Virus record (IMG/VR): IMGVR_UViG_3300045141_000187
Coordinates: 1 to 40,057 of that record
Length of the DNA stretch: 40,057 bases
Strand: one strand, 5' to 3'
From: a virus
Numbering within the stretch: the first letter of the stretch is position 1; every line of letters starts with the position of its first letter. Below are positions 6,739 to 30,564 of this stretch, piece after piece. Below the pieces are notes generated by a model. The model worked only from the letters and a program-made list of their open reading frames with translations, searched no databases and was not told the origin of the DNA. The position numbers and the translations under genes were made by a program.

Positions 6739-8634
6739 TCAGGGTCCAGTGACGCTATGAGTTATGTTGCCGGTTCCGGCATCTTGCACCGGGGTCAAAC
6801 CCGCTGCAGGCGCGACAAAGTTGTCGGTCGTCTGCAGGTTCTTGGTGGTGCCGCTGTCGAACACATAGCCGATGATGGTCGGCGCTTTCGCTGCATTGGA
6901 GATGATGTTGTTGCTGGCGATGCCAAACGATGATGTGCCCTTGATGTGGAAGCATGTCACCGATGGCGTCACGATTGTCGACGTGCCACATATGTTGCCC
7001 CGGATCAGCCACTGGTTGACGCTGTCGAGCGTCACGAAATCCGCCTGTGCGGGCGGCGAGGTCACCCGCGTCACGCCTGAGTTAAAGCTGCTGTTTACGA
7101 TGGTGACGTTGATGCCGCTCTTTATCTCGATCTGCTGTATCGTCTGCCCTGCATAGAGATCATCGATCTCGATCTTGCCGTAGCCGCGTGGGCTGGTGTT
7201 ATCGAGCCGGATGCAATGTGCGCCTAGGCCACAGATGACGTGATGAAACTGTATACTCTGGAAACCAACTGTATCGGCGGCGTTCATAGTGAACTGGAAA
7301 CCGCCGCCCATATAGTAAGCAACCGAGACCTTATCAAAGTTATAGTCGTAATGCCCCAGCAGGTTATTCTGCGACCGCATGATGAACAGCGCGTTGCTCG
7401 GGTTGCTGTTGAGGTAGGTCAGGTTGTTCCTGGCATCGATGCGGCTGAATGACGCAACCGAGGCCGAGGATAGGTCGAACCCGCCGTTGAAATACCCTGT
7501 GCCGCTGTTGACGGCAGTGATGATCAGGTCCTCGAACAGCGTGGTGTGAGCGATCAGGTTGAACTGCGCCTTGACGATCGAGGCTCCTGGTGCGTCCGCG
7601 ATCAGTTGCAGCTTCTGTAGGGTCAACGCGCCGCCTGAGTTGGTGAACCGGCTGACATTGAACGCGGCACCTGTGCAAGAGCCGCTGCCTGTCGTGTTGA
7701 CTGGATTAGGTGGTGGTGTGCCGTAGCTGCCGGGGTTGCTGATCGTGAAGCCGCCGGCCTGGATGACACCCGCCACGGCATTGGTCACAGTGAGTTGGAA
7801 CTGCGTCGGCGTGCCGCCGGGTGTGCTGCCGCCAGTACCAGTCAGCACCTCGCCGTTGACGCAGCCGGTGCCGGTCGTCGTCAGCAGGCCGGTGGTGAAC
7901 AGCGCGCCCGCACTAAAGCCGCCATTGAACGTCGCGCCGTAGCCGATACCCGAGGTGGTATATTGCAGCGGCGTGGAAGGGGTCACCGAGCAGTTGCCGC
8001 CGTGACTAACCTGCGATGTCTGGATGTCGCCTGCCGTGCCGGTCGTCAGCACGGTGATCTGCGGCAGGTCGCTGCATGTTCCGCCTGCTCCGGTCAGGGT
8101 CAGCAGTTCGCCGGGGACGAAGGCCGCGCCGGTTGAACCCACGTTGGCAACGCCGATGCCCATGCCGTTGGACAGGCCAAAGTTCAGCATGGGCGTAGCA
8201 CCGATCAGGATGGCGCTCGACCACTGATCCTCGCCAACGATCGCCAGGCCGATGTTGTTCGCGGTCAACGGCGTGGTGCCGAGCTTCAGGGTAGTTCCTG
8301 CTGGTATCCTGATCGTGCCGCCAGGGGTGCCGACAACATTCGGAACGGCTGACCGCGTGGCGATCCAGTTGATTGCGGCCTGCATGGCGCACCAGTCGGC
8401 CTCCTGCGTCGCCGGTGTTGCGTCTGGACATGCCACCGGATGCGACTGCCCATCACCGATCGCGCCGAAGTCTTTCGGATTGATAGCGTCGGCCGCCCTA
8501 TCCGCCAGCTTACGCGGTGTCGTGCTGCCGGTCGCCTTGGTCGTTGTGTTGCTCATATCGCCGCCGACCGGAGCTGGCACCTGGGCCAGCGCAAGCGATG
8601 GCAGCAGCAGCGCCAGCATCACGGCGTGACGCAT
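6739..8634 (-). CDS. Tailspike with right-handed beta-helix (pectate-lyase superfamily) and a signal peptide
   Basis: 631 aa. Residues 1-18 look like a Sec signal peptide (MRHAVMLALLLPSLALAQ), which is odd for a tail protein. Next comes the widespread phage sequence RKLADRAADAINPKDFGAIG, which opens tailspike pectate-lyase-3 domains, then several hundred residues of beta-helix-like repeats rich in Asn, Thr and Gly. These proteins bind and often cleave capsular or O-antigen polysaccharide at the virion tip. The gene overlaps the preceding one by 16 nt. The enzyme activity cannot be read from the sequence. Confidence 0.8.
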   Translation of the reverse strand: MRHAVMLALLLPSLALAQVPAPVGGDMSNTTTKATGSTTPRKLADRAADAINPKDFGAIGDGQSHPVACPDATPATQEADWCAMQAAINWIATRSAVPNVVGTPGGTIRIPAGTTLKLGTTPLTANNIGLAIVGEDQWSSAILIGATPMLNFGLSNGMGIGVANVGSTGAAFVPGELLTLTGAGGTCSDLPQITVLTTGTAGDIQTSQVSHGGNCSVTPSTPLQYTTSGIGYGATFNGGFSAGALFTTGLLTTTGTGCVNGEVLTGTGGSTPGGTPTQFQLTVTNAVAGVIQAGGFTISNPGSYGTPPPNPVNTTGSGSCTGAAFNVSRFTNSGGALTLQKLQLIADAPGASIVKAQFNLIAHTTLFEDLIITAVNSGTGYFNGGFDLSSASVASFSRIDARNNLTYLNSNPSNALFIMRSQNNLLGHYDYNFDKVSVAYYMGGGFQFTMNAADTVGFQSIQFHHVICGLGAHCIRLDNTSPRGYGKIEIDDLYAGQTIQQIEIKSGINVTIVNSSFNSGVTRVTSPPAQADFVTLDSVNQWLIRGNICGTSTIVTPSVTCFHIKGTSSFGIASNNIISNAAKAPTIIGYVFDSGTTKNLQTTDNFVAPAAGLTPVQDAGTGNITHSVTGP

Positions 8635-13697: not shown

Positions 13698-14237
13698 ATG
13701 GTTAAACGCACCCTGCCAGATCAAACCTACCTCCGCGAGTGCTTTGACTATGACCCAATCACGGGAACGCTTTATTGGCGCGAACGACCGCGTTCGCACT
13801 TTCGCAGAGAGCAGGAATGGAAGGGGTGGAACAAAAGAAACACCGGAAAGATCGCTGGATTTCCGCGTCCTGACGGTTACAGGTGCATCACCATTGGCAA
13901 CAAACAGTACATTGTCCACCTCATAATCTGGGTGCTTGTTTTGGGTTGCCCTCCAAAACACTATATTGACCATAAGAACCGAGAGAGAACCGATAATTCG
14001 TGGAGCAACCTCAGAGAGGCGACCCCATCTCAAAATCAAAGGAACAACAGGTGCGTAGGTCCATCTGGCCTTAAGGGTGCCAGCTTCCACAAGAACAATA
14101 CATTCCGAGCGATGATAAGGATCGGCCCCAAGATGAGGCATCTTGGCATATTTGCGACCGCTGAAGAGGCGCATGCGGCGTATTGCGCTGCCGCAAGGAC
14201 CCTCTGCGGAGAGTTCTGGTATGACGGTCATAGTTAG
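13698..14237 (+). CDS. HNH homing endonuclease with AP2 DNA-binding domain
   Basis: 179 aa on the strand opposite to the surrounding tail genes. The HNH_3-type core is around residues 65-115: GYRCITIGNKQYIVH, then IDHKNRERTDNSWSNLREAT with the usual His and Asn residues. An AP2 domain follows (GLKGASFHKNNTFRAMIRI through LGIFATAEEAHAAY). The start has an AAGGAGG 7 nt upstream. Codons are visibly richer in A and T than in neighbours, as expected of a recently arrived selfish gene. It sits exactly where a tail gene should begin. Function: cuts a DNA target in unoccupied alleles to spread itself. Confidence 0.9.
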   Translation: MVKRTLPDQTYLRECFDYDPITGTLYWRERPRSHFRREQEWKGWNKRNTGKIAGFPRPDGYRCITIGNKQYIVHLIIWVLVLGCPPKHYIDHKNRERTDNSWSNLREATPSQNQRNNRCVGPSGLKGASFHKNNTFRAMIRIGPKMRHLGIFATAEEAHAAYCAAARTLCGEFWYDGHS

Positions 14238-16150: not shown

Positions 16151-17266
16151 CTATGCGTCAGCGACCGCAGCACTCCACACGGTCATGACGCCATTATCGA
16201 CTGGCTTCGTCGTGTCCACCGTTGGATCAGTGCCGAAACGCAGCTTGGCCACGCCACGGATTTCCTCAACGCCAACACCGTTCATAAAACCATAATCGCG
16301 GGTGTTGGTTATCACCTTGGTTCTTTGCGCCCACGCGATGCCGAGAGCCTGTGCGCCGCAGAGGTAGGACGCGCCGCAGTCGATCGTTGAACCGCCTGGA
16401 TCACCAGTATGGAGTACTGGTAGTTCGGGTATTTCTCTCACAATAACCCCATCGTAAATAAGATCACCAGCCGTGAACAACGGATTGTCGCTGCCCCGGT
16501 TCCAGGCGTATTGCAGCGCGTTGATGATCACCGGATCGAGCATCAGGTCACGAAACACGAGGGACGGCACGAACATCACGTACCATTCCTCGTCATTACT
16601 TATCCGGATGGGTCGGATTTTCGGTACCGCAGTCCTGGCGAGCCGCTTTGCGAGGGTGATCTGCGCGGCGGTCATCTTGTCCGCGGTATTGTCGACAGTC
16701 GCCAATGCAGTTGCATATACACCGCTGACCGCGTTGGCCTTGGAGATCCCGAACAGCACCCGGTCGGCGTTGTTCACCATCCAGGTGTTGCGCTGGGCTG
16801 CGGATGCTGCCGCGTAGGTGAGTTGCACGTTGCCGTCTGCTGTGATCGCGCCAAGGCTGCTGATGATGTCCGTCCGGAGCTTATTCGCCGCCCAGTTCTT
16901 CAGGACGCTCCTGCCGGCTTGCAGCAGGTCGATCACCGACTTCTGTTCGTCCCAGTCTGACACCGCGACGGCATGGCGAATGACGCTGACCACGACGTTC
17001 AGGCTGCGAGCGTTGAGGATTTCCTCATTGCCCTCCAGGACCGTATTTCCAGAGACCCCGGCTCCGACCAGATTTCTGACCGTTGGGAAGACGACAGTAT
17101 CGCCGGGTTTGCGCGTAAGATCCGTTTGTAATTGGATCATCGCATCCATTGTGGTGCCGAAATACGGTGTGAACTGGTTTTCTCGGAGGAACTCTACCCA
17201 GAAGTCACTTTGCCATTGTATTGGGGTTAAGCCCGGTCTTGCCGGGGTTAGGATCATGTCAGCCAT
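16151..17266 (-). CDS. N4-gp56-type major capsid protein
   Basis: 371 aa, usual length for this family. Diagnostic stretches: KPGDTVVFPTVRNLVGAGVS followed by GNTVLEGNEEILN, then VIRHAVAVSDWDEQKSV and DLLQAGRSVLKNWAANKLRT. These are the conserved N-terminal blocks of the N4-gp56/DUF4043 capsid family. The protein forms the icosahedral shell. It follows the scaffold gene across a hairpin-rich 189-nt gap. The start ATG has only a weak ribosome site, so a structured leader may matter. Confidence 0.88.
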   Translation of the reverse strand: MADMILTPARPGLTPIQWQSDFWVEFLRENQFTPYFGTTMDAMIQLQTDLTRKPGDTVVFPTVRNLVGAGVSGNTVLEGNEEILNARSLNVVVSVIRHAVAVSDWDEQKSVIDLLQAGRSVLKNWAANKLRTDIISSLGAITADGNVQLTYAAASAAQRNTWMVNNADRVLFGISKANAVSGVYATALATVDNTADKMTAAQITLAKRLARTAVPKIRPIRISNDEEWYVMFVPSLVFRDLMLDPVIINALQYAWNRGSDNPLFTAGDLIYDGVIVREIPELPVLHTGDPGGSTIDCGASYLCGAQALGIAWAQRTKVITNTRDYGFMNGVGVEEIRGVAKLRFGTDPTVDTTKPVDNGVMTVWSAAVADA

Positions 17267-17455: not shown

Positions 17456-18346
17456 CTAGTAACGCACTGAGCCGCCGGCGCCGTTGGGCCGCTTGCGGTT
17501 TTGTATTGGCGCCAGCACGTCATCGAGGCTGGGCTCGCCGGTCCATGCTCCAGCGGTGCGTCCTGCGACGCTGCGTGCGGTACCGAGGCTTGGCTGCATC
17601 CCGGCGGCGGGTGAGGGGACGGGCGCCGGCTTGGCTTCCTGCTCCCAGCGTGCGCGGCCCTCGGCCAGTATCTTCTCGCGGTATGCGGCCGGGTCGTCCC
17701 CGACATCGCGCACCAGGCGCAGCCGGTCGACCTCACGGGTCAGCCACGCATACGGGTGAGGCTGGGAATACAACTTGCCGAACAGCGTCGGATCGGCGTT
17801 GGCCAGGTTTCGGAACTCAGCCACATATTCCGATAACTTCTCAGCGCCGATTTTATCGCTCAACATCATTTCGCTGTTGTTCAACCGCTCGTTGAGCAGC
17901 GCCGCCTGCTGCTGCTGGACGACGTGCTGCGCCCAGCCCTGCGGGTTGGTGGCCGGGTCCGGCGGCGGCTGTGGTGGCGCCTGGGGCTGCGACGGCGGGG
18001 CGGTCGCGCGGCGTGTGGCGTCCTCCAGTTGGCGCTGCAACTCCTTGTGCTTGGTCTCGGCCTCGACCGCGCGGGCCTTCCAGTCCTGACGGCGCTGGCG
18101 CTCGCGTTCCAGCACTTGCTGCGGGATGTAGCTCTTGCCGTCTTGCTCGAGCCGATCAGACGGCTCCGCATCGGCCTCGTCCTCGGGCTCTGGCTTGGCT
18201 GTGGCGGCCTTGGCGGCTGGCTCGGCCTTTGCCTCGGGCGCCGCCTTCTCGGGCGCTGGCGCCTCTGCCGGAGCCGCTTTCGGCTCCTCCGTGACGGTCG
18301 CGGTTTCGCCCGCGAGAAAAGACTCGAGCTGTTCGTTGGCGGCCAT
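17456..18346 (-). CDS. Scaffolding protein
   Basis: 296 aa from ATG at 18346, with AGGA 8-9 nt upstream. It is highly charged and Ala/Glu/Pro-rich (residues 20-65), then helical with heptads (QRRQDWKARAVEAETKHKEL, about 90-110), a Pro/Gln-rich linker and a conserved-looking helical C-terminal half with MLSDKIGAEKLSEYVAEF at about 161-178. Such acidic coiled proteins just upstream of the capsid gene are scaffolds that direct shell assembly. Residues 161-171 match the in-frame translation of the nearby CRISPR spacer at 9 of 11 positions. Reading further upstream runs through the CRISPR repeats and is not coding. Confidence 0.78.
   Translation of the reverse strand: MAANEQLESFLAGETATVTEEPKAAPAEAPAPEKAAPEAKAEPAAKAATAKPEPEDEADAEPSDRLEQDGKSYIPQQVLERERQRRQDWKARAVEAETKHKELQRQLEDATRRATAPPSQPQAPPQPPPDPATNPQGWAQHVVQQQQAALLNERLNNSEMMLSDKIGAEKLSEYVAEFRNLANADPTLFGKLYSQPHPYAWLTREVDRLRLVRDVGDDPAAYREKILAEGRARWEQEAKPAPVPSPAAGMQPSLGTARSVAGRTAGAWTGEPSLDDVLAPIQNRKRPNGAGGSVRY
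17834..17869 (-). other. Diverged protospacer-like site in the scaffold gene, with ATG PAM position
   Basis: On the coding strand, 17866-17834 aligns without gaps to the 33-nt spacer at 18408-18440: 23 of 33 bases agree, and 9 of 11 codons give the same amino acid. The three bases immediately 5' of it (17869-17867) are ATG, one of the PAMs accepted by E. coli type I-E Cascade. Differences include positions 4, 7 and 8 from the PAM side, inside the seed, so this copy should escape. It marks where a related phage's true protospacer should lie. Confidence 0.8.
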
Positions 18347-18378
18347 AGCAATCGTCCTGGATGTGGTGGTAAGGGGGT

Positions 18379-18469
18379 GGCTTCCCTGCGTCAGCGGGGA
18401 TGACCCGATGCTGGCCGACAAGATCGGGCCAGAGAAATTGGTGTTCCCTGCGTCAGCGGGGATGTTCCG
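18379..18469 (+). CRISPR. Phage-borne mini-CRISPR array, type I-E-like, two repeats and one spacer
   Basis: Two 29-nt repeats (18379-18407, 18441-18469) share TTCCCTGCGTCAGCGGGGAT and end in CCG; they differ at four positions. The second agrees with the E. coli K-12 type I-E repeat at 24 of 29 positions. Each folds into a 7-bp stem with a GTCA loop and one G-T pair, like a Cas6e target. The spacer (18408-18440) is 33 nt, giving a 62-nt period. In the standard I-E orientation the guide is made from the plus strand, opposite to the late genes. No further repeat is found on either side and no cas genes are in the window. The array fills nearly the whole gap between two head genes. Confidence 0.88.
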
Positions 18470-18480
18470 AACCTGCCCCG

Positions 18481-18762
18481 CTACTGGTTGAGCTCGCTCG
18501 GTAGCGGTGGCAGCGTTCTGGCCCCGCGGGGCAGTGGCTGTGGTGGTCGCTGGCGCGGCTCCGGTGCGGGCGTCTCGCCGGGCTGCTGCCGCATCTTCGG
18601 CAGATGCAACGCCTGCGTCTGCTTGGTGACGCTGTATTTGGAGCGCCCCATGAGCCGCCCGATCAGCACGGGGCCGAGGCCGTTCTCCCAGAGCTGCCGC
18701 AACAGGGCGCGCTCCTCGTCGGTCCAGGGAACGCTGACGACGTGCTTCATGCTGGCTGGCAT
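18481..18762 (-). CDS. GcrA-like helix-turn-helix protein
   Basis: 93 aa. WTDEERALLRQLWENGLGP, then IGRLMGRSKYSVTKQTQALH, follows the pattern of the GcrA/Myb-like DNA-binding helix-turn-helix of Alphaproteobacteria, followed by a Pro-rich disordered tail. GGGGAG is about 8 nt upstream of ATG 18762; MKHVV at 18750 is an alternative start. It lies directly upstream of the CRISPR array and scaffold. Possible roles are regulation of late genes or mimicry of a host cell-cycle factor. Confidence 0.65.
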   Translation of the reverse strand: MPASMKHVVSVPWTDEERALLRQLWENGLGPVLIGRLMGRSKYSVTKQTQALHLPKMRQQPGETPAPEPRQRPPQPLPRGARTLPPLPSELNQ

Positions 18763-20742: not shown

Positions 20743-20852
20743 CGCACACCAGGCCCCTGGATCATGAAGCCGAACACCGTTACAATATCCAAGCAAGACG
20801 CGGCGCCCCGCCAAGGGCACCGACGCCTCTGACCCTTGGAATGGAGCAACCC

Positions 20853-21509
20853 ATGCCACGAGCTGCCCGCAGCATGCCTGTATCCGGTGTCTACGCAATC
20901 CAGAACGCCGTAAGCGGACGCGTATACGTTGGATCGGCCGCAAACATCGGTCTCAGATGGCATACGCACCGTCACATGCTCCGTTATGGCAAGCACCATT
21001 CACCAGCAATGCAGCGATCATGGACCAAACACGGCCAGGAGGCGTTTTCTTTTCGGGTCCTGGAGATCGTCGGTTCCACGGCTGACCTATACGTCCGCGA
21101 ACAACATTGGATAGACGCGCTTCACGCAGTATGCCCAAGGCGCGGGTTCAACGTCCTTCCGAACGCTGGAGGCCCTCGAGGCCACAAACGAACCGCTCAA
21201 TCCATCGCCAAGCAGGTCGCCGCCCGGAAAGGAAAGCCACTAACCCAGGAGCATGCCGCCAACGTGCGAGCCGCGTTGGTGCAGCGCAACCAGACCCAGG
21301 AAATGCGCGCCAAAGCCTCAGCCCGCGCTACCGAACGCAACCGCCCGGGGCCACAGCCACACTGTACACCCGAATTCAGATTGAGGATGAGATCACTGCA
21401 TCTAGGCAAAGTCTTTTCCGCCGAAACTAGAGCAAAGATGTCTGCCGCAGCCAAAATCCGTTCCCGCTCCTCCGCACGCAATGTCGATGGCAAGTTCATT
21501 GCAAAATGA
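20853..21509 (+). CDS. GIY-YIG homing endonuclease with NUMOD-type tail
   Basis: 218 aa. GVYAIQNAVSGRVYVGSA holds the GIY (GVY, residues 12-14) and YIG (YVG, 25-27) motifs, with Arg35 in GLRW and a Glu in YVREQHWI. The C-terminal part repeats NUMOD3-like text (GKPLTQEHAANVRAAL, GKVFSAETRAKMSAAAKIRS) that binds DNA. GGAG 7 nt before ATG 20853 favours that start over ATG 20841. It stands opposite to the late genes and its end overlaps the next minus gene by 14 nt. A mobile selfish gene. Confidence 0.88.
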   Translation: MPRAARSMPVSGVYAIQNAVSGRVYVGSAANIGLRWHTHRHMLRYGKHHSPAMQRSWTKHGQEAFSFRVLEIVGSTADLYVREQHWIDALHAVCPRRGFNVLPNAGGPRGHKRTAQSIAKQVAARKGKPLTQEHAANVRAALVQRNQTQEMRAKASARATERNRPGPQPHCTPEFRLRMRSLHLGKVFSAETRAKMSAAAKIRSRSSARNVDGKFIAK

Positions 21510-27774: not shown

Positions 27775-28643
27775 GGCACGACGCCTCGAGCGGCTGCCCG
27801 TGCTGCCAGCTCGGCGCGTGCGGCGCGCAATTGGGCGTCGGGCAGGTAGCTCGGCTTTGGGCGTCGCGGCGCAATCTCCGCGATCTGCTCGTCAGCGGAC
27901 AGCGCTGCCGCTCGTGGCGGGTAGGCTCGCATCCGCAGCGACCGCTTCAGGTCGTCCAGCACGGCCAACGCCACCCCAGGATCGACCGGGGGATTGTCGT
28001 CCTCGGGCACCGGCTCACCACGTACCACCTCCTGCCCCACAACCAAAGGTTGAGCGCGTCTAGCCCGGAGCTGATCGAGGTAGCTGCCGAACGCCACGGG
28101 GCGGGTCGCGGTCTCTTCCTTTTCCGGGAAACTTAAAACCTGGCCTTCCCTCTTTTTTTCATTAAGGGGTTCAATAAGGGGTTCGTGTGCAAACGGTGCA
28201 CACTCAACCTGCTGTTTTTTGCACACTGACTTGGAAGATTTTGCACGCTCAGACGGCGACATGCGTGCAGTATTTTCACACTCGCTGTGGTTGTGTGCAG
28301 ATTTTGCACCCCCATTCACGGAGTGTGCAGATTTTGCACCTTCGTCTGGCCGTAAGATGCGGTAAACGTTGACTCTTGCCTTTTTGTTGGCGCCCGCCTT
28401 GGCAAGAATGGCCTCCCGTTCAATCCGGTCCGTTACAAGCTCGATAAGACGGCGTTCAGTGTGCAGATATTGCACAGCCGCTATCACCGATCGACGCGAT
28501 AGTTCGCAGTCATCCGCGAGCCGTTGCTCGGACGGAAAGCAGGTCCGTTCGCCGTTCGCCCGTTCCGCCAAGGCGATCAGAACCACCCGCTGCGCCGCTG
28601 TCAGATTTCTCTGGGCGAAAGCCCACGCAATATGCGGCGTCAT
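27771..28643 (-). CDS. Lambda O-like replication initiator (helix-turn-helix)
   Basis: 290 aa. Residues about 5-75 form a winged-helix/HTH of the helix_turn_helix_36 type: LTAAQRVVLIALAERANGER, then FPSEQRLADDCELSRRSVIA and AVQYLHTERRLIEL. The middle (about 100-155) is low-complexity with repeated AKSAH text because its DNA is an iteron array. The C-terminal part is basic and helical (YLDQLRARRAQPLVVGQ). ATG 28643 overlaps the HNH stop (ATGA) with GGGAG upstream. As with lambda O, the N-terminal domain would bind iterons inside its own gene. A helicase loader is not seen. Confidence 0.75.
   Translation of the reverse strand: MTPHIAWAFAQRNLTAAQRVVLIALAERANGERTCFPSEQRLADDCELSRRSVIAAVQYLHTERRLIELVTDRIEREAILAKAGANKKARVNVYRILRPDEGAKSAHSVNGGAKSAHNHSECENTARMSPSERAKSSKSVCKKQQVECAPFAHEPLIEPLNEKKREGQVLSFPEKEETATRPVAFGSYLDQLRARRAQPLVVGQEVVRGEPVPEDDNPPVDPGVALAVLDDLKRSLRMRAYPPRAAALSADEQIAEIAPRRPKPSYLPDAQLRAARAELAARAAARGVVP
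28142..28476. other. Predicted replication origin: iterons inside the initiator gene
   Basis: Copies and half copies of TGTGCAGATTTTGCACA occur at 28186-28202, about 28215-28224, 28237-28246, 28264-28281, 28294-28310, 28324-28340 and 28460-28476. The 17-mers at 28294 and 28324 are identical; those at 28186 and 28460 are perfect palindromes (TGTGCA N5 TGCACA). Most are spaced 22-33 nt. A T-rich stretch (28150-28177) adjoins the array, like the melting region beside lambda iterons. The layout is what is seen; origin function is inferred. Confidence 0.7.
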
Positions 28644-29068
28644 CCATTGCACTCCCGGCAGTCCGGAGAACACCCGGCGCAATAAGCCAGAGGCGGTGTC
28701 CACCCCCTCGCCAGCGCCTCGTCCATGGCCTCGCGCCAGCCAGTCGGCCGCCAGTCCTGCTCGATCGTACCCTTAGTCGAGTTGCAGTCGCGGCAAAGCG
28801 GCTGGAGGTTGCCGATACTGTCAGCCCCGTCCGCGACCAACGGCTGGACGTGATCCTTTGACAGCCTGCCCCACTCCCATGGGTCCACCCCCTCGACCGG
28901 CCGCAGATACTCGCCACCGGCATTGCGCACGCAAACGAATTGCGCATTACAGCGAACGCACCGCACGCCACAGTAATTGACGAGGAAATCCCATTCTCTG
29001 TCGGTATGGGAGCCGCTGGCGATTGCAGCTTGGTGGCGCACCCTGCGGCGTTTCCCGCTAGCGCTCAT
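28640..29068 (-). CDS. HNH endonuclease
   Basis: 142 aa. CVRCNAQFVCV gives a Cys pair; the HNH core is LSKDHVQPLVADGADSIGNL followed by LCRDCNSTKG; two further Cys pairs close the protein (YCAGCSPDCRECNG). Coupled by ATGA at both ends to early genes on the same strand, so it behaves as an integral operon member rather than an obvious recent insert. It may nick or cut DNA in replication or packaging, or be a settled homing enzyme. Confidence 0.82.
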   Translation of the reverse strand: MSASGKRRRVRHQAAIASGSHTDREWDFLVNYCGVRCVRCNAQFVCVRNAGGEYLRPVEGVDPWEWGRLSKDHVQPLVADGADSIGNLQPLCRDCNSTKGTIEQDWRPTGWREAMDEALARGWTPPLAYCAGCSPDCRECNG

Positions 29069-29325: not shown

Positions 29326-29701
29326 AGTACGCGCTCCCTTGCTCAGTCCTGGGGAGTGCGATAAAAGGGGGATGCAACTCGCCCCTTTGTTCGCTCACCC
29401 GAGCGACAGTTAATCCGATACAGATGCCGCTCGGTTCCCGCCGGGCGGCATTTGTGTTATGCGGCATGTAACGAGTCTCGGCAACAAGTCGCTCCTGCTC
29501 GACGGCACTCTCTGGGCACTCGGCTCGCTCCGGGAGGCCGGAACTCTCCACATACACGGCTCGCTCCGTGACGACGGCGCTCTCAAAGGTCACGGCTCGC
29601 TCGATGACGGCGGTACTCTCGCTCCCAACGGCTCGCTCTGACCAATCGGTTCTCTCAGGGCGGCCGGCTCGCTCGCGAGACTTGGTACTCTCAAAGGTCA
29701 C
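29159..29701 (-). CDS. Hexapeptide-repeat reading frame (doubtful 3' part)
   Basis: GTG at 29701 overlaps the stop of the Transposase_20 gene (GTGA), the usual coupling in this phage. The first about 75 residues repeat ERAVxx/ESTVxx (for example ERAVTFESAVVTERAVYVES), encoded by the 18-nt repeat array. Downstream text is not repeat-like and the last 167 nt overlap the better supported gene at 29065-29325, so the true end is unclear. The opposite strand is also open over the array (GSL/GTL hexapeptides, 29459-29641). 29326-29458 otherwise holds a TGCCGC/GCGGCA hairpin (29425-29450). Confidence 0.4.
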   Translation of the reverse strand: MTFESTKSRERAGRPERTDWSERAVGSESTAVIERAVTFESAVVTERAVYVESSGLPERAECPESAVEQERLVAETRYMPHNTNAARREPSGICIGLTVARVSEQRGELHPPFIALPRTEQGSAYYDQATFTQPTRGPAPSGADPAVDRTPAAAWVPNSIRCLDGPVSPHQRCRRSPAHA

Positions 29702-29707
29702 GGCTTC
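29503..29707. repeat. 18-nt phased repeat array A
   Basis: Twelve units at an exact 18-nt step: a 10-nt core alternating CGGCTCGCTC and CGGNNCTCTC, each followed by 8 variable bases. Cores begin at 29503, 29521, 29539, 29557, 29575, 29593, 29611, 29629, 29647, 29665, 29683 and 29701. It abuts the 3' end of the Transposase_20 gene. A matching array lies beyond that gene's 5' end. Confidence 0.85.
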
Positions 29708-30564
29708 AACCCCGGAACCAAGTGCTGGTTCGGCACCTCGATGCGATGCACATGCCCCCCAACGTGATCCAAGACGTAGGGCTTCGGCGGCCGCTCACCG
29801 TACATGGTGAAGAACAGCACTTCGTGGAAATGGCTCAGGAAAATCTTAACGGCATAGCGTTGCGCCCGAAGATGAATGCGCGCAGGGGGAAGCTTGCCGG
29901 CCAAATAGTGTTTCTTCGCAGCCGTATCGTCCCCGAACCGCTTGGCCGTGAGTGACGCGGCAGCCTGCTCGGCGTAATCGCCAGCCTCGTTGCGCGCGAT
30001 CTCACGCTCCTTGCGCTGCTGATACAGCTTGCCGTACGTGTCGTCTGGGTGATTGCTGACCTTGGTGAACGACTCCCCGACGATCCAGCAAAGCCGTTTC
30101 AGGCTGGCGTTCCAAGGACGCTTGGTGCCCTTGTCCCATCTGACCGTGGGGTCGAGGCCGCAGAACCGCCAGATGTGCCCCACGGTGGGGGCTTTGGCGA
30201 TGTCGATGTGCGCGAGGAAGCCCGCGGTTATGACTGGGCCAATGCCCACGATGCTGCGCATCCACACGCCCGCAGGCTGGCCGGCGCCGTAGACATCGAG
30301 CGCGGCTTTGATCTGGTTTTCCAGTACCTGTTCCTGGGTGAACAGCCACGCGATCGTGTCGTGCGGTTCCGGGGCTTTGTCGTCCGTGGCTTGTGATAGC
30401 GTGCGGACCTGGTGTGCGGATCGGATGCGGTCTTCCTGGATCTTGTAAAAAGCATCTACGAGAAAGCGTGCCTCGGCTGGCCCGAGCGTGCGTGATGCCT
30501 CGCGCAGGTCTTTGGTTAGCTTCTGTATGGGCGTTAGTAGTGACGGGTCTACATAGTCACTCAT
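29698..30564 (-). CDS. Transposase_20-domain (IS110/IS116-like C-terminal) protein
   Basis: 288 aa. Residues about 110-175 match the Transposase_20 pattern with a helix-hairpin-helix: SIVGIGPVITAGFLAHIDIA, then WRFCGLDPTVRWDKGTKRPW and ASLKRLCWIVGESFTK. The C-terminus (LPPARIHLRAQRYAVKIFLS) is basic. The N-terminal part lacks the DEDD/RuvC-like catalytic domain of true IS110 transposases, so it is probably a domesticated DNA-binding protein. Repeat arrays with identical cores flank it on both sides. Coupled to its neighbours on the minus strand. Not an intact insertion sequence. Confidence 0.7.
   Translation of the reverse strand: MSDYVDPSLLTPIQKLTKDLREASRTLGPAEARFLVDAFYKIQEDRIRSAHQVRTLSQATDDKAPEPHDTIAWLFTQEQVLENQIKAALDVYGAGQPAGVWMRSIVGIGPVITAGFLAHIDIAKAPTVGHIWRFCGLDPTVRWDKGTKRPWNASLKRLCWIVGESFTKVSNHPDDTYGKLYQQRKEREIARNEAGDYAEQAAASLTAKRFGDDTAAKKHYLAGKLPPARIHLRAQRYAVKIFLSHFHEVLFFTMYGERPPKPYVLDHVGGHVHRIEVPNQHLVPGLKP

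Follow-up and report, generated by a model that had tools for sequence, protein, structure and literature searches.

A minimal type I-E-like CRISPR array in a phage genome, probably directed against the scaffold gene of sister phages

Here, we describe a repeat-spacer-repeat unit of type I-E form in a 40,057-nt IMG/VR virus record (62.7% G+C), referred to below as the window, that is, the whole stretch of DNA analysed. Judging from its sequence and from those of related phages, all of them on metagenomic contigs, this element is very probably a minimal virus-borne CRISPR array that redirects the Cascade-Cas3 machinery of the host against competing sister phages. This supports the interpretation of the first-pass annotation, which had read the spacer as a guide against the scaffold gene of a sister phage that spares its carrier. 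The features discussed are the following:

16151-17266: major capsid gene (phrog_334), adjacent to the scaffold gene
17456-18346, minus strand: scaffold gene, 296 aa, gene family predicted to be targeted by the spacer
17834-17866, minus strand: own homologous site in the scaffold gene, MLSDKIGAEKL, codons 161-171, in frame, 23/33 identical to the spacer
17867-17869, minus strand: ATG triplet 5' of the own site
18379-18469: repeat-spacer-repeat unit of type I-E form (29 + 33 + 29 nt)
18379-18407, plus strand: upstream repeat GGCTTCCCTGCGTCAGCGGGGATGACCCG, type I-E-like
18400-18407: putative crRNA 5' handle ATGACCCG, last 8 nt of the upstream repeat, assigned from the motif WTGAMCCG in 12/13 upstream repeats
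18408-18440, plus strand: spacer ATGCTGGCCGACAAGATCGGGCCAGAGAAATTG, 33 nt, 31/33 identical to sister-phage scaffold genes
18441-18469, plus strand: downstream repeat GTGTTCCCTGCGTCAGCGGGGATGTTCCG, its first 21 nt (to 18461) being the putative crRNA 3' hairpin
18481-18762, minus strand: small GcrA-like gene on the far side of the array (weak Pfam GcrA match, below cut-off)

The two repeats share 25 of 29 positions and have the type I-E form with the TTCCCTGCGTCAGCGGGG hairpin; folded in isolation, the repeats form hairpins (z about -3), and the last 8 nt of the downstream copy have drifted. The unit thus combines the 29-nt hairpin repeat, the 32-33-nt spacer and the AAG/ATG PAM of type I-E crRNAs with the two or three repeats and one or two spacers of a mini-array. 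Neither Cas6e (PF08798) nor Cas1 (PF01867), the two families searched, was found in the 12 carrier contigs, some of which are fragments; as to these two families, the viruses are devoid of cas genes, as mini-array carriers are. A sigma-70-like promoter was not found near the array, Rfam gave no above-threshold match within the window, and no nucleotide match to the array locus was found in annotated phages. The slot between the scaffold and GcrA-like genes is variable, being mostly filled in sisters by 39 to 531 nt of other sequence and by several kb in two of them. Often, as in L143, L048, L003, L038, L008 and others, this gap holds a conserved block of 102-117 nt with an inverted repeat.

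The gene at 17456-18346 was assigned as a scaffold gene because it lies directly upstream of the major capsid gene and because its product resembles the scaffolding protein encoded by Pseudanabaena phage Pam5 (with 27% identity and E 5e-20 in that single comparison). It belongs to a head-gene block on the minus strand comprising terminase, portal, scaffold and major capsid genes, and among annotated phages the Pseudanabaena phages Pam5, Pan3 and Pam1 come closest, their capsid and portal proteins being about 40% identical. The same genome carries conventional homing nucleases, namely a GIY-YIG homing-endonuclease-like gene (20841-21509, plus strand) and an HNH gene (28640-29068, minus strand), as well as a gene similar to IS110-type transposases (29698-30564, minus strand) lying inside the phage genome. 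An integrase, which would point to a temperate phage, was not found among the window ORFs scanned.

The coding relationship pointed out in the first-pass annotation was recovered exactly: the spacer translates in frame to MLADKIGPEKL, codons 161-171 of the carrier's own scaffold gene encode MLSDKIGAEKL in the same frame, and the two DNA sequences agree at 23 of 33 positions, with an ATG 5' of the own site. Mismatches fall at positions 4, 7, 8, 12, 15, 21, 22, 24, 30 and 33, the first three of them in the seed, as had also been stated. ATG is a functional I-E PAM in E. coli; the I-E seed consists of positions 1-5, 7 and 8, and the PAM set considered is that of the E. coli system. By itself, the match at the own site is weak, as unrelated sites within the window reach up to 21/33 and shuffled spacers up to 24/33 in 1.78 Mb of related loci. 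It gains significance because sister phages match the spacer at 31/33 at exactly the same site.

Sister loci were collected by a degenerate scan, which returned ten contigs with the scaffold motif, and by a capsid-gene scan, which returned about 80 related loci. The homologous scaffold site is 31/33 identical to the spacer in L027, L028, L029, L037 and L038, with mismatches at positions 12 and 23, an ATG PAM and an intact seed, and 30/33 identical in L049, L053, L055 and L056; other sister contigs show 28-30/33 at the homologous codons, and a second IMG/VR scan added two further contigs (31/33 and 30/33). At least five sister contigs thus hold a scaffold gene closer to the spacer than that of the carrier. 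Position 12 is one of the bases flipped out in Cascade (PMC5965380), and one of the two mismatches of the best targets falls there. The first-pass annotation would have taken a perfect match inside a homologous scaffold gene with AAG or ATG upstream as confirmation; the gene, the ATG and the intact seed stand, at 31/33, but an exact 33/33 target was not found in the degenerate IMG/VR scans, which gave 27-31/33.

Repeat-pair scans and a relaxed local search of related contigs revealed units of the same kind, with other spacers, in 11 related contigs (G001, G003, G004, G005, G006, G007, G008, G009, G012, G014 and G015), G004/G007 and G005/G009 being near-identical pairs. Such repeats were not found in 18 related contigs, and a scan for further arrays returned, in relevant contigs, copies of the G006 array only. 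For 12 distinct spacers, the best matches in other contigs cover 26-32 positions, against at most 24 for shuffled spacers (30 shuffles each). They are flanked by ATG (seven), AAG (three), AAA (one) or ATC (one); 10 of the 12 spacers therefore have an ATG or AAG PAM, for a background AAG+ATG frequency of 2.3% per site (P of at least 10 of 12 = 3e-15). The ATC belongs to G014, whose match of 31/32 has this non-canonical PAM. The G005 spacer GAGTAGACC... matches G007/G004 at 32/32 with an ATG PAM and, reciprocally, the G007/G004 spacer TGTGCATGG... matches G005 at 32/32, also with an ATG PAM, so that the two lineages are predicted to target each other through perfect matches. As in mini-arrays, the spacers are thus aimed at related viruses while the carrier's own locus is mutated. 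Targets were not found for several G012 spacers or for those of G010, G011 and G013.

Homologs of the GcrA-like gene are the target of the G003, G005 and G014 mini-arrays. The copy in the window has protospacer-like sites for the G003 and G005 guides at 18716-18747 and 18713-18744 (plus-strand coordinates; 26-27/32, ATG/AAG PAM), which may make the window phage a target for its own sisters. On the 41.5-kb related phage contig G012 (L125-L127), five separate mini-array units lie at distinct locations, and for most of them no target is known. A lone repeat, GCGTTCCCTGCGTCAGCGGGGATGTGCTA, lies without partner at position 7264 of the reverse strand of L017, possibly as an array remnant or a single-repeat unit. 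In L126 (reverse strand, near 14057-14177) and L013 (11060, 11262), a near copy of the spacer (31/32, 29/32) that lacks a canonical PAM occurs in the phage itself at a distance of 88-200 nt, which perhaps reflects a local origin of spacers.

The repeats of the group have diverged in a manner consistent with production of a guide. Among 13 single-spacer units, the 5' handle motif WTGAMCCG is present in 12/13 upstream repeats versus 0/13 downstream repeats (p = 3e-6), and a 5' GTG in 8/13 downstream repeats versus 1/13 upstream ones. A mature I-E crRNA is made of an 8-nt handle, a 32-nt spacer and a 21-nt hairpin (PMC5965380), and the conserved repeat parts appear to be only those that would enter it. 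The arrays hence look as if they were maintained for making one guide and not for spacer acquisition. We propose that the window array would be transcribed during infection and that host Cas6e would cut both repeats, releasing a 62-nt crRNA (ATGACCCG + spacer + GTGTTCCCTGCGTCAGCGGGG) to be loaded into a type I-E Cascade of the host. Cascade and Cas3 would then destroy co-infecting sister phages with the matching scaffold allele, and the carrier would be spared because its own allele is mismatched at seed positions 4, 7 and 8. Carriers and targets would share an I-E host. Against this scheme we count the possibility that the 91-nt transcript folds by repeat-repeat pairing, the failure to find a promoter-like site near the array or an exact target in IMG/VR, the restriction of the exact repeat core to four GTDB genomes without link to the phage, the ATC PAM of G014 and the spacers that have no target.

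Self-sparing is probably a recurrent trait of the group. With two exceptions, every own allele that was aligned is altered in the PAM or in the seed. The exceptions are the first spacer of G005, where the own seed is intact and the allele differs by PAM-distal mismatches and an indel, and G014, where the PAM is ATC in both own and sister alleles. In its own copy of its target, G005 has four mismatches, all in the seed (4, 5, 7 and 8). When the 286 33-nt windows of the scaffold gene are ranked by their highest identity to any sister, the own site of the window phage comes 9th from the bottom; the seed of this allele, taken alone, is not significantly enriched in mismatches (p = 0.35). Synonymous recoding of own alleles was striking in the window (5/8 changes inside versus 38/140 in flanks) and in G001 (9/11 versus 16/29). 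It is not claimed here because the excess is not significant over all arrays (35/86 versus 280/850, p = 0.15).

The guides also lie close to the carrier's own version of what they target. The distance from the array to the own target homolog is 541 nt in the window, 33-298 nt for eight other distinct guides and 1,178 nt for the mini-array of G007, and it reaches 15-16 kb for the first spacer of each of the two multi-spacer arrays. It thus lies less than 600 nt away for 9/12 guides, with P = 4e-12 versus random placement, a rough value because the cut-off was picked after the distances were seen, three contigs are short and some slots are shared (G003a, G005 and G014 beside the GcrA-like gene; G006 and G007). 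When only near-complete contigs are considered, 6/9 guides are within 600 nt (P = 6e-8). That the guide targets the gene it sits next to, first noted for the window, is therefore a property of the set and not a one-off, and the accompanying remark on joint exchange of guide and target extends to the whole group, because the own target homolog is near the array for most guides.

Several other origins of these units were weighed. A spacer that is a stray in-frame scaffold fragment, left by chance or as a coding echo and devoid of guide function, would account for the own 23/33 match, which alone is within reach of chance. This is highly improbable in view of the 31/33 sister matches with the PAM on the correct side, the recurrence of such units in other phages, where the spacers and genes are unrelated, and the reciprocal exact targeting. 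The repeats are of the class found in bacterial I-E arrays, as would be expected of a piece of a host array picked up passively, for instance through transduction or through host contamination of the assembly; such an origin is barely conceivable, given that the arrays sit in phage gene blocks and recurrent slots, that their spacers aim at the same phage family and that upstream and downstream repeats differ by a crRNA-specific drift. The units could also be RNA anti-CRISPRs (Racrs), that is, repeat mimics titrating host Cas proteins whatever the spacer. Like Racrs, which are small phage-borne repeat mimics without cas genes and include single-repeat forms against I-E (PMC10651486), they are phage-encoded and have degenerate repeats, and G006 has an unpaired repeat elsewhere. 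Yet a Racr is a solitary repeat without a targeting spacer, while the present units have two repeats around a 32-33-nt spacer with PAM-flanked sister-phage matches, a handle conserved upstream only and diverged own alleles. We regard this function as improbable.

The closeness of guide and target brings up a further possibility, which builds on the host-Cascade reading and does not replace it. In an RNA-guided form of homing (poison-antidote), the sister allele would be cut beside the array slot, and repair from the carrier would copy the array together with the resistant allele. This agrees with the location beside the predicted cut site (33-541 nt from the own target homolog for 9/12 guides, 1.2 kb for a tenth) and with PAM or seed changes of the own alleles in nearly all aligned cases; T4 homing endonucleases likewise act at distances ranging from hundreds to thousands of bp and lead to marker exclusion (PMC2988022). 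Besides, a 627-nt tract that contains the array is 99.4% identical between G008 and G015, whose other aligned stretches are 70-91% identical, but this tract is only suggestive because part of it is conserved at 94-96% in other sisters too. Homing is, moreover, at odds with the processive degradation by Cas3, owing to which a type I break may kill and not convert, and with the non-significant excess of synonymous changes at own sites. The linkage could instead stem from recombination hotspots or from selection against separation of guide and resistant allele, and it relies on a post hoc 600-nt cut-off, with some arrays in a shared slot. We thus hold homing to be possible but doubtful, and put forward only tentatively that the units are natural RNA-guided homing elements, in which a guide, linked to its own cut-resistant allele, would direct host Cascade-Cas3 at the sensitive sister allele and thereby exclude or convert it. 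If true, they would be a natural analogue of a CRISPR drive, and homing would account for the proximity of mini-array and target gene. In G008, the shared array tract is immediately adjacent to an HNH-like gene.

Read as a mini-array acting through host Cascade, the unit is not new in kind, since virus-borne mini-CRISPR arrays have been described in the archaeal portogloboviruses SPV1/SPV2 (Medvedeva 2019, PMC6858448) and phage mini-arrays aimed at related viruses have been reviewed (PMC11656645). With SPV1/SPV2 the group shares one or two spacers, no cas genes, spacers against close relatives, reciprocal targeting, mutated own orthologous loci and targets near the arrays (PMC6858448). It differs from these archaeal, leader-bearing arrays with host-like repeats by its bacterial type I-E form, its non-identical degenerate repeats without recognisable leader and its mostly single-spacer, dispersed units (five in G012). 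The phage mini-arrays surveyed by Faure 2019, as presented in papers citing it (PMC6858448, PMC7099407, PMC11656645), are also phage-borne, without host-like leaders and with some spacers at adjacent genes of related phages; compared through these citing papers, the present set adds a whole group, reciprocal exact targets and a measured linkage. The free-standing homing endonucleases of T-even phages offer another parallel, with a gene near its cleavage site, a resistant own allele and exclusion of sister markers in co-infection (PMC2988022), but they are protein nucleases, whereas our group would combine an RNA guide with a host nuclease. What is new is the density of such units within one bacterial phage group, their degenerate, dispersed, single-guide and crRNA-only nature, the crRNA-only conservation and the quantified linkage of guide and own allele, which suggests RNA-guided homing. 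Conflict through mini-arrays has reportedly been put to an experimental test in a single archaeal virus pair only (PMC11656645); the closeness of array and target was described in a paper that called its origin and consequence unclear (PMC6858448). Since the present bacterial phage group offers about a dozen independent guides, along with exact reciprocal targets, mutated own alleles and a measurable linkage, this question can be approached statistically and, by means of E. coli I-E Cas, at the bench.

As for the host, the exact repeat core occurs in four GTDB genomes only, none of them linked to the window phage. Two routes to a host were discarded: capsid homologs in sampled Alpha- and Gammaproteobacteria, taken as possible prophages, are at most 45% identical, and 50 spacers of candidate arrays gave no convincing match. 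Sabulicella rubraurantiaca (L019, reverse strand of 1-1700) carries, near a cas6e gene, a chromosomal array whose repeats almost all differ in sequence but retain the hairpin and the spacing; it may serve as a model of a host Cas6e that accepts degenerate phage repeats.
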